A program made the position numbers and the translations under genes. From Adhaeribacter arboris (GTDB lineage Bacteria > Bacteroidota > Bacteroidia > Cytophagales > Hymenobacteraceae), in the NCBI RefSeq assembly GCF_003023845.1, contig NZ_PYFT01000001.1, positions 2,170,001-2,234,000 on the forward strand: a stretch of 64,000 bases of DNA. The letters run 5' to 3'. Each line of letters begins with the position of its first letter. Position 1 is the stretch's first letter. This document shows positions 33,249-54,298 of this stretch, piece after piece. Below the pieces are notes generated by a model. The model was not told where the DNA came from. It was given only the letters and a program-made list of their open reading frames with translations, and ran no database searches.

Positions 33249-35051
33249 TTAGCCATTCGTCCATTTATTTAAAATAGCAGCTTGCTCTTTACCAGCCTTC
33301 TCGTTGGGGGTGATTTCGAAGCGGCGCGTTTCAGTAGCTACTAAAGGAAATTCCAAGGTAAGCATTTGTCCATCTCGGTTTATAAGCAAACTAATTGGCT
33401 GACCAGCCCGCGCCCCTGATAAGGATAGATTCACGCCGTCGGTTATACGGTAACCATTTAAAGCGATAATTTCGTCGTTTACATTTAACCCACCTTGCCA
33501 GGCGCTACCATCCCGGAGTACAGTAGTAACTATTTGTTTCCCGGTAGTTAAAGAGACCTTTGCTCCTAAACTAGCTTCCGGTTTGTTGGTATTTAAGTTC
33601 ACAAAGTGCAATCCGGCATAATTAAAATAGGCGACGTAGTCGGGAGTTTTAGTACCATAAATATAATCATTAAAAAAAGCATCCAACTTTCCGCCTGCTA
33701 CACTCTCAGCTGCTTGTTTAAATTCCGCGTCCGTAAAACCACGGTCCAGTTTTTTATAATATTGCTGATACAATTGACGCATTAAATCGTCTAAATTTTT
33801 TCGACCTTTCGTGCGCTGCAAAATTTCCAGGTTTAATAATGTGCCAATAACGGAGCCTTTAGAATAATAAGAAGTTCCGGCATTTATGGAGTTTTCGTTG
33901 GGCCGGTAATATTTAATCCAGGCATCAAAACTCGACTCAGCCGCCGATTGTACCCGGACACCCGGAGTATTTTCGAGGTCGCTTATTTCTTTCGCAATAG
34001 TATTTAAATATTGTTCGTTCGACTGAAATCCACTGCGGCGCACAATTAAATTAGCGTAGTAACTAGTAAAACCCTCCGAAACCCACAGTAAATTAGTATA
34101 TGTTTCGGCATCGTAATTAAATGGACCTAAACCAGCCGGCCGCAAACGTTTTATGTTCCAAAGGTGAAAGTACTCGTGGGCAGCCAAACTTAGAATGCTA
34201 TTATAACCGGCGGCGCTAGCATAATTCCATTTTTTCACCTGCAAGGTTGTAGAATATTTATGCTCCAATCCTCCTCCCCCATTTGAGGTATTATGAATAA
34301 TAAATAAGTACCGATTAATAGGCTGATCACCCATGATTTGGGTAGCCGTAGTGGTTATTTTTTTCAGGTCGGCTAAGAACTTATCTTTGTTCACGTTCGA
34401 TTCCCCGAACATAGCTACCTGGTGCGGTACGCCATTTACCTCAAACTGCCACACATTATGGTTGCCAATTTCAATCGGCGAATCTACTACTTCATCGTAG
34501 TCAGCGGCCTGAAATGTAAAGGGCTGACTTTCGGATGCCGGCGCCAGAGCCGTTGAAACCACTTTCCAGTCTTTAAAGGGTACTACTTTTATTTCGGATT
34601 TTTCCTTTTGCAAACCATCCGGATACATAAACACACTCGCGCCGTTGGCATAACCATGTTCGGCATCCAGAAAACTGGTACGTACAGTTAATTCAAAAGC
34701 ATATACTTTATAATTTATTTTAACTTGCGGTACTTTTTGTGAATAGATACGCCAGGTATTTTTATTAATTTTTTCGAAACGCACAGGTTGATTATTGGCA
34801 CTGGCGGTAAATCCTTCCACATTTTTGGCGTATTCGCGAACCAGGTAAGAGCCGGGAGTCCAAACTGGCATTTTTACATCTACATAATCTTTCTGAGGAC
34901 TCGCAAATGTCATTTCAACCTCAAAATAATGCGTTTGGGGTTGCGGCATAGCTAAGGTATAAGTTATGTTAGCGGCTGCCCAAATTTTAATAGGAAGAAA
35001 AATAATTGAGAAAGTAAAAAGTAAAATTCGTTTATTATTGGATAAAGACAT
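33249..35051 (-). CDS. M61 family metallopeptidase (glycyl aminopeptidase-like) with PDZ domain
   Basis: 600 residues with a signal peptide (about 1-24). The N-terminal beta domain of M61 enzymes (ITYTLAMPQPQTHYFEVEMT, about 25-44) is followed by the catalytic domain. The zinc motif is in LAAHEYFHLWNIKRLRP (about 286-302): H-E-x-x-H with a later Glu in LLWVSEGFTSYY. A PDZ domain lies at about 500-570 (GLNVNDEIIALNGYRI). These exported peptidases remove N-terminal Gly or Ala from peptides; in Bacteroidota they are periplasmic. It is separated from the micro-ORF unit upstream by a strong terminator, so it likely has its own promoter near 35.1-35.3 kb. Confidence 0.93.
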   Translation of the reverse strand: MSLSNNKRILLFTFSIIFLPIKIWAAANITYTLAMPQPQTHYFEVEMTFASPQKDYVDVKMPVWTPGSYLVREYAKNVEGFTASANNQPVRFEKINKNTWRIYSQKVPQVKINYKVYAFELTVRTSFLDAEHGYANGASVFMYPDGLQKEKSEIKVVPFKDWKVVSTALAPASESQPFTFQAADYDEVVDSPIEIGNHNVWQFEVNGVPHQVAMFGESNVNKDKFLADLKKITTTATQIMGDQPINRYLFIIHNTSNGGGGLEHKYSTTLQVKKWNYASAAGYNSILSLAAHEYFHLWNIKRLRPAGLGPFNYDAETYTNLLWVSEGFTSYYANLIVRRSGFQSNEQYLNTIAKEISDLENTPGVRVQSAAESSFDAWIKYYRPNENSINAGTSYYSKGSVIGTLLNLEILQRTKGRKNLDDLMRQLYQQYYKKLDRGFTDAEFKQAAESVAGGKLDAFFNDYIYGTKTPDYVAYFNYAGLHFVNLNTNKPEASLGAKVSLTTGKQIVTTVLRDGSAWQGGLNVNDEIIALNGYRITDGVNLSLSGARAGQPISLLINRDGQMLTLEFPLVATETRRFEITPNEKAGKEQAAILNKWTNG

Positions 35052-35313
35052 AGGTAACGCTTGGTAAAAACTAAGTTAGAAGAGCAAATAAAAACTATTT
35101 GGTATATTTAGAAAGGCTTTTGAGTTTTAGTTAAATTAAAAATCAAGAAATGAGTAAGTTGTTTTTTTGAAGTATAATACAATACGAATTTTAAAAATTT
35201 TTATCCGGCAAAAGTACTGGATAAAAAGATAGAAAATAGAGTATTCCTCATCAAAAAATTAATGCTAACCGAAGCTGGAAAAATGGAAGTACCCTACATT
35301 TAAATCAGTGGGC

Positions 35314-35355
35314 AAAAAAAAACCTGCCTGTTTCATGCAACATGAAACAGGCAGG
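35314..35355 (-). terminator. Very strong terminator of the strong-SD micro-ORF unit
   Basis: A 15-bp perfect stem (CCTGCCTGTTTCATG with CATGAAACAGGCAGG) closes on a 3-nt loop. On the minus strand it is followed by nine T residues. No minus-strand gene other than the 22-codon ORF lies between it and 35.65 kb, so it ends a short independent transcript. Confidence 0.9.
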
Positions 35356-35460
35356 CTATAAATCCTTTAAAATCTTACCAAGTTACCGATTGTATTTCAA
35401 ACCAGTGATCCTTTCAGATCTTAAAAATAATGTTAATCTGTTTTAACCGGTAAAGCCAGC

Positions 35461-35529
35461 TTAGAACAGACCTTCATTGAAGGATACAACATTATTTGAA
35501 CCTGATAAAATTTGTTTGGGACTAGACAT
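35461..35529 (-). CDS. 22-aa micro-ORF with exceptionally strong Shine-Dalgarno
   Basis: Starting MSSPKQILSG and ending FNEGLF, 22 residues, stop TAA at 35461-35463. The leader carries GAAAGGAGGT (35534-35543, read on the minus strand), which is complementary over 10 nt to the 3' tail of the 16S gene in this window (ACCTCCTTTC). It lies 4 nt before the ATG (5 nt after the GGAGG core). No other gene here has anything comparable, and Bacteroidota mRNAs generally lack SDs. The peptide has no signal sequence, membrane helix or known leader motif; I do not recognise it. It lies in a ~310-nt unit with a possible promoter (TTTG 35650-35653, TATCTTTA 35624-35631) and a strong terminator. It could be a true microprotein, a translated regulatory peptide, or part of a structured RNA. 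Confidence 0.55.
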   Translation of the reverse strand: MSSPKQILSGSNNVVSFNEGLF

Positions 35530-35620
35530 TTGTACCTCCTTTCTTTAAATCCGACATATCTTACGGGGTTTGCCAAGCACCTTATGGCGCGGCCAGTAAG
35601 CCGTAGCACTCACTACTATG
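35530..35620 (-). ncRNA. Structured 5' leader candidate of the micro-ORF
   Basis: On the minus strand, GCCGCGCC-ATAA-GGTGC-TT-GGC (35572-35593) forms an 8-bp hairpin with a 2-nt bulge. The competing pairs CGGC/GCCG, TACGG/CCGTA and CTTAC/GTAAG all involve the segment just before the SD. Mutually exclusive pairings next to a strong SD are the usual design of a translational switch. It was not matched to any riboswitch family that I know. Confidence 0.4.
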
Positions 35621-35909
35621 TTATAAAGATATATTTTATCCATTAGGTTCAAAAACATTCTACTATTTTTTTATGAATATTTTTGGAATGATAACACTAT
35701 CAGCAACTTAAATTATTACATTTTAAACAGCAAAATACAGTAGATACGCTATTTCAAACAACTACTTATCTATTAATCATTCACTTACTTATTTACTTAA
35801 AATTGCATATTTCTATTAATTAACTTTATCACAATCAAGCATTTAAAATCACATACCTAAAACTGAAATACTAATTACTGGTATAAGAACTTGTCGTTAC
35901 CTCGACCAA

Positions 35910-53920: not shown

Positions 53921-53930
53921 CATAACGTTG

Positions 53931-54298
53931 TGGAGCTGCAGGGATTCGAACCCTGGTCCAGACAAGGAAACCGTCGAGCTTTCTACATGCTTAGTTGCCG
54001 TTGGTTTTTCGAGTACGTTTAGGTCGGCACCAGACCTGTGAACGTACCTTAGATACTTTAGCTTCGCTTGGGTGCCGTACCTTCACCCTTGCTATCCATT
54101 CATTTCGATGCCCCGTACTCAACCGCGGAACGGAGAAGCAGTTGCGGGACAATGGCTATCGCTTAATACCTAGATTAAGCAGCCATGGCGTAGTTAGTCT
54201 CGCCGATTATTGTTTGAACGCTTTTTTAACAGGAGACTCGCTCAACTCCCGACATGCTTACCCGCAGCCTGCACAAGCTGTCAATTCCAGTCAGCCCC
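53931..54298 (-). ncRNA. ssrA: Transfer-messenger RNA
   Basis: About 368 nt on the minus strand. The 5' end GGGGCTGACTGGAATTGACA and the 3' end GGTTCGAATCCCTGCAGCTC form the tRNA-like part; acceptor GGGGCTG pairs with CAGCTCC, and CCA is not encoded. The tag reading frame is GGC GAG ACT AAC TAC GCC ATG GCT GCT TAA, giving GETNYAMAA (plus the tRNA alanine). tmRNA frees stalled ribosomes and marks the chain for ClpXP, both of whose subunits are encoded in this window. Most tags end in LAA; here it is MAA. Confidence 0.94.

Follow-up and report, generated by a model that had tools for sequence, protein, structure and literature searches.

The minus strand of the 64,000-nt stretch of Adhaeribacter arboris DNA analysed here (the window) carries a small conserved element in which a strong Shine-Dalgarno sequence (SD) stands before a 22-codon open reading frame (ORF), and in which part of the coding sequence is preserved as a strand of a long-range RNA helix, its changes being compensated in the partner strand. 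The element is real, and the preliminary description of the locus was correct: on re-reading the sequence, all the features that it had claimed are found in place within 35653-35314 (-). We propose, at a shade under an even chance, that it is a free-standing RNA of ~306 nt acting in trans, gated by its own translation and opened by ribosomes whose anti-SD is free. The anti-SD of Bacteroidota is intact even though their ribosomes conceal it, and the worked-out use of it is rpsU autoregulation (PMC9976891). For other Cytophagales the element is a strong candidate for such a use and is widely conserved; should its ORF be unannotated, SD screens that start from genes would overlook it. Through it the role of exposed-anti-SD ribosomes in these bacteria becomes directly testable at one small locus.

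As read from the sequence, the putative transcription unit of ~306 nt (35619-35314 (-)) combines an 11-nt complement to the 16S rRNA tail, the 22-codon ORF and a terminator. Its candidate promoter (35624..35653 (-)), which we take to be of Bacteroidota type, consists of TTTG at 35653-35650, an 18-nt spacer and TATCTTTA at 35631-35624, and TTTTGAAC / TAxCTTTA is kept in the promoter region of a 52-row alignment whose rows come nearly all from the window's family. The intrinsic terminator (35314..35355 (-)), found by reading and by a terminator scan, has a 15-bp stem, a 3-nt loop and nine U, the hairpin occupying 35355-35323 and the nine T 35322-35314 (-); the scan counts 17 pairs when flanking bases join the stem. 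Such signals suggest that the unit is transcribed. Between them the SD, 4-nt gap, ATG and 22 codons first reported are confirmed, with GAAAGGAGGT at 35543-35534 (-) and the ATG at 35529 opening the ORF MSSPKQILSGSNNVVSFNEGLF (35461..35529 (-)), whose length is kept in relatives. No family of Rfam 15 passes its gathering cut-off at the element, in the window or at six diverse loci, which speaks against a known RNA family as its identity; a relaxed setting gave twelve sub-threshold matches, all far from their cut-offs. Nor is the element a tmRNA: the window's one tmRNA, found by ARAGORN and Rfam, lies elsewhere (53928-54298; 53930-54298 (-) with its tag GETNYAMAA) and is ordinary. Among the titles and abstract openings searched, no report of the RNA was found.

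The SD is longer than first described, for a preceding A lengthens the 10-nt match to an 11-nt complement, AGAAAGGAGGT (35544-35534 (-)), of the 16S tail ACCTCCTTTCT; the 16S end reads ...GGATCACCTCCTTTCT, and the two matches in the genome are identical there. This extended SD, AGAAAGGAGGU (35534..35544 (-)), pairs with the tail at a calculated -17.6 kcal/mol, and energies of -17.0 or stronger recur in 110/110 elements, all of them gathered with SD-bearing patterns. Relatives found without an SD pattern carry the variants GAAAGGGGGT (L035), GAAGGGAGGT (L103) and GAGAGGAGGT (L104), whose changes on reading preserve pairing via G-U, the 16S tail being confirmed in one of the three genomes (G026), and one relative from a metagenome-assembled genome (L099) has a shortened SD. 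That the organism hardly uses SDs, as the preliminary description held, is true of the window if first-ATG starts are right, because none of 30 non-overlapping window ORFs of at least 150 aa, each started at its first ATG, reaches -8 kcal/mol or better, and their mean SD energy (-1.34) is that of shuffled upstream regions (-1.41). The motif by itself is unremarkable. Across the 7.2-Mb genome, AAAGGAGGT...ATG occurs 18 times, two of these at one place, and a reversed control pattern 8 times, and within the window one-mismatch SD matches number 5 against 4.0 in shuffles. An SD followed by ATG is thus not beyond chance genome-wide; it is conservation that lifts the element above chance and rules out a chance SD as its explanation. 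A second AGAAAGGAGGT lies a few nucleotides 5' of an ATG in the same genome (G000:C1:1703099-1703113 (-), L265), before a 24-codon ORF of unrelated sequence, and may be chance. At another locus (L152 in G651, ~413-437), AGAAAGGAGG is followed directly by TTATGCCTCCTTTCT, placing an extended SD and start codon in a self-complementary hairpin ahead of an 11-codon ORF.

All 60 examined genomes of the window's family contain the element, 49 by BLASTN and the other 11 (G010, G014, G015, G019, G026 and six more) by a sequence-only model, R1. BLASTN matched 54 of 98 relatives, including the 49/60 of the family; one of the 54 (L054) is a chance match on reading. R1, applied to a draw of 291 genomes from the order, gave matches in 66 at E 0.01, of which 54 were accepted (45 of the window's family, 7 of family f5, and 1 each of f17 and f20); the 12 weak matches (E above 0.001) were not, and none of the 8 that were read has the anatomy of the element. 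Each genome has one strong match, with a weak second one in G045 (E 0.0011). Scanning the genomes of 84,980 species with a pattern returned 90 contigs, and all 80 among the matches listed are Bacteroidota by title, including Pontibacter, Rufibacter, Adhaeribacter, Chryseolinea, Ohtaekwangia, Cesiribacter, Nafulsella, Rhodocytophaga, Anditalea and metagenome-assembled genomes. Within the class, a strict pattern matched 77/395 genomes, mostly by chance; 20 stretches from these matches yielded five relatives (L148, L149, L150, L156, L157) and one ambiguous case (L158). One of the five, L148, has a cobalamin riboswitch nearby (632-821). A structural model, R2, matched 11 of the 395 class genomes: 4 of the window's family, 4 of f23, 1 of f51, 1 of f26 and a weak one (G510). 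Of the 13 genomes of f23 it matched 5. Three relatives outside its seed were recovered, G727 (L350) strongly (E 9.9e-11) and G327 (L157) and G406 (L114) weakly (E 0.0013 and 0.0068); relative L156 was not matched. The RNA is therefore general in the window's family, and in the rest of the class its distribution is patchy. Relatives retain the SD, the start and a short ORF almost everywhere and the RNA itself is conserved, so that the comparative refutations foreseen in the preliminary description do not apply, and what had been described as an independent unit is supported by comparison as an independent-looking conserved one.

Absent from the preliminary description is a long-range fold, in which codons 3-4 and ~6-10 of the ORF are base-paired to a 3' stretch immediately ahead of the terminator. 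In the folds listed, clade-wise RNAalifold gives one architecture: P1, P2/P3, an AUGUNNNRY motif, SD, start, P4 and P5. The 5' domain begins with P1, a GUAGU-GAGU-GCUAC hairpin (35603..35616 (-)) of which 5/5 pairs change on both sides, with 97.7% of cells paired, and which covaries in a second alignment too. P2 (35600-35596 with 35564-35560; 35560..35600 (-)) then encloses the P3 hairpin at CCAUAAGGUGCUUGG (35587-35573), whose outer pairs all change on both sides (3/3; 77.9% of cells paired in the second alignment) and whose CCxUAAGG..UUGG-like core is clear outside Pontibacter-type loci. Upstream of the SD lies AUGUNNNRY (35549..35557 (-)), its AUGU and its A near-invariant in alignments A2, A3 and A4. 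SD and start codon thus sit behind a 5' domain of hairpins and just outside the long helix. The first part of that helix, P4, joins AGUCC in codons 3-4 (35519..35523 (-)) to GGAUU just before the terminator (35361..35365 (-)), and AGUCC or AAUCC pairs with GGAUU in 53/53 rows of A3, rows that were selected for GGATT. P4 has little covariation of its own because it is nearly invariant, with one pair alternating between G-U and A-U and the outermost pair missing in 49/53. Its continuation, P5, joins CAAAUUUUAUCAGGU in codons 6-10 (35500..35514 (-)) to ACUUGGUAAGAUUUU (35369..35383 (-)); 14 of its 15 pairs change on both sides across A3, and its span is 58-142 nt between innermost partners and 86-170 between outermost.

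Tested together in 53 sequences, P1, P4 and P5 have 85.8% of cells paired (77.5 when shuffled, 31-49% for slid structures), 130 cells changed on both sides (37.7 when shuffled) and a covariation score of 0.347 (0.201 when shuffled). None of these three values was reached by any of 500 shuffles, which ignore relatedness; the slid structures keep it. A fourth measure, 'further pair types', is not beyond the shuffles (47/500). Against a shuffled ORF, P5 has a z below -1.64 in 53/53 rows of A3, and outside A3 in 11 of 14 scored elements (10/12 and 1/2, with L156 left unscored), falling short in L149 (z -0.5), L150 (z -1.5) and L157 (z -1.4). A3 excludes near-duplicates as well as elements that lack GGATT at 90-240 nt: L174 and L247, where it is nearer (79 and 84), stand outside, L169, L199 and L215 were dropped when the alignment was made, all five being scored among the elements outside A3, and eight further similar picks were dropped by name before the counts. 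The minimum-energy structure of the window's own RNA contains P4 and P5, with a z of -3.4 without the terminator. A competing helix 3' of the stop is clear in Cyclobacteriaceae-type loci, where CCUCGUGAAAUUUUAG opposes the P5 3' strand and GAGG; such helices are stronger than shuffled in only 26/53, which makes a two-state switch likely for some clades but leaves it unproven for the rest. In L113 (G352, minus strand), the end of the 22-codon ORF and the 3'UTR that follows form a long hairpin whose loop contains the stop codon.

One rival reading makes the RNA a message whose product is a functional microprotein of 18-23 residues, with the fold and strong SD merely setting expression. In its favour, among the matches listed, 80/80 keep SD and start and stop after 18-23 codons (the search pattern fixes SD and start, not length), with ATG or GTG as start and all three stops in use across relatives. 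From codon 10 to the end, the ratio of nonsynonymous to synonymous changes (N/S; 104 distinct ORFs of 16-29 codons, the count of 80 having had no length limit) is 0.00 for the Rufibacter type (6 ORFs) and 0.28 for the Hymenobacter type (24), and this purifying selection suggests a working peptide in those two groups. The same measure rises through 0.57 in the Adhaeribacter type (7 ORFs), 0.67 (7) and 0.78 (22, Pontibacter S-type) in two Pontibacter-type groups and 0.91 in a mixed group (4) to 1.28 in 12 Cyclobacteriaceae/Cytophagaceae-type ORFs, so that an open short frame is kept everywhere and a peptide only in some clades; codons 2-9 of the Hymenobacter type (N/S 1.74) fit neither clean coding nor clean RNA constraint. 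Furthermore, the MSSPKQIL-like identity of the N-terminus falls on the P4/P5 strand, where altered codons (SVVL, SKNV) have counterpart changes at the 3' end; since codon changes are compensated across the long-range helix, part of the peptide's conservation is conservation of the RNA. In families f23, f26 and f51 the peptides that were read have little in common with that of the window after the initial few residues, yet the anatomy of the RNA is retained. The earlier claim of a conserved regulatory microprotein thus fails for the main product, constraint beyond codon 10 being clade-dependent and N-terminal conservation partly due to 3'-end pairing, and we consider a microprotein mRNA unlikely as the general account.

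A leader that regulates the downstream gene by attenuation would account for a short ORF, a terminator and, in some clades, competing helices, and in the window the next gene (33249-35051, presumably M61-peptidase-like) is indeed on the same strand. Elsewhere the first downstream gene lies on the opposite strand in 53 of the 71 named loci that have one, and neighbouring genes in the first 30 loci vary or often face the other way; given this usual arrangement, the element is not a leader, a reading which context largely refutes and which is the least credible of all. It looks like a free-standing unit. Neighbours do recur (loci L168-L247), with one gene downstream in 41 loci, which we take to be NlpC/P60-like, and two upstream in 36 each, presumably a DUF2147-like secreted protein and a GreA-like protein. 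Plasmid records, phage records and viral contigs gave no match, so that a phage or plasmid element was rejected; this, with the one strong match per genome, also speaks against a hok-kind type I toxin mRNA, in which the 3' end would pair with the translated region and silence it until processing. The topology is the same, a terminator-adjacent 3' end folding back on the region where translation starts, but none of 74 distinct peptides has a 15-residue window above 1.6 on the Kyte-Doolittle scale (mean hydropathy 0.03), and a toxin of this kind is very improbable. Less remote, if still distinctly unlikely, is a ribosome decoy, an RNA whose chief effect would be to retain or count 30S subunits that have their anti-SD free, its peptide and opened fold being irrelevant. 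The other genes of the window lack a strong SD, and the 11-nt complement matches in strength the rpsU SDs of the literature (PMC9976891); a decoy, however, would need neither a stop codon at a narrow distance nor a compensated helix running through codons.

We therefore return to the reading of an RNA gated by its own translation, whose ribosomal side is drawn from the rpsU work. According to that study, Bacteroidia ribosomes have their anti-SD hidden by bS21, bS18 and bS6, those of Flavobacterium johnsoniae that lack bS21 start better on the extended rpsU SD, and such SDs (9-13 bp, below -13 and reaching -14 to -21 kcal/mol) occur before rpsU in ~20% of Cytophagales, mainly Cyclobacteriaceae (PMC9976891). 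In the proposed scheme, ordinary Bacteroidota ribosomes, their anti-SD tucked away by these three proteins, would be unable to use the SD of the element, which would therefore remain closed. Extrapolating from what the same source reports of rpsU (PMC9976891), ribosomes with a free anti-SD, whether bS21-less or immature 30S, may dock by the 11-bp SD duplex and translate through the long-range helix, thereby opening it. The output is the weakest step of the scheme: it might be the opened RNA, through its 3' part, its stability or its partners, or it might be the ribosomes held, and the peptide would be a clade-specific extra and not the shared product. Among the functions first suggested, the sensing or titration of ribosomes with a free anti-SD is our best guess. 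A more specific version, in which the RNA is a gauge of anti-SD availability, translation by bS21-less or immature 30S frees a trans-acting 3' domain, and the codons serve chiefly as a switch strand with the peptide incidental in most lineages, is rather doubtful as a complete account; if true, it would point to a regulon of specialized ribosomes beyond rpsU. The counts do not support the idea that the RNA replaces an rpsU SD that has been lost. The rpsU of the window's genome has no SD, and a strong one (-13 or better) occurs in 2/20 and 2/19 RNA-bearing genomes against 2/20 without a match, a comparison in which 'without' means no model match, so that diverged copies may be missed, in which one 'without' start (G068) was mis-assigned, and in which one of 20 genomes (G721) had no rpsU match and a second rpsU copy in G714 was left unresolved. 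Strong rpsU SDs do occur in some Cytophagales without a match to the RNA (L303 in G092, L300 in G083), one of them being AAAGGGGGT with a G-U pair.

Several known systems resemble the element in part. In hok-type mRNAs the 3' end folds back on the region where a short ORF is translated, and the 3' end of the element likewise pairs with its own translation region through P4 and P5; unlike them, it pairs within codons 3-10 with the SD left free, and its peptide is not hydrophobic. RNAIII and SgrS are dual-function small RNAs, structured and provided with their own promoter, terminator and short ORF, a description that fits the element with its putative promoter, although the element has no Rfam match. 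In the icaR mRNA of Staphylococcus aureus, part of the 3'UTR is reported to base-pair with the message's own 5' region and to hamper initiation (PMC3868564). The element resembles it in that a 3' segment pairs back into the 5' part of the same RNA; icaR differs in pairing at the SD region and in encoding a repressor, where the element pairs within the ORF of a stand-alone short RNA. With rpsU autoregulation it shares an exceptionally strong SD in an anti-SD-hiding phylum, and the same ribosomes would be its likely readers. Its pairing lies beyond the mark of about -13 kcal/mol for the rpsU type, and its -17.6, from our own duplex calculation, falls inside the -14 to -21 kcal/mol given, by another program, in the rpsU study (PMC9976891). 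It differs in being a structured RNA with a short ORF, the bS21 gene lying elsewhere. By the features tested, the element thus stands outside the rpsU-type, fold-back and leader-type families, and works like a fold-back or leader-type translation gate combined with an rpsU-type extended SD.
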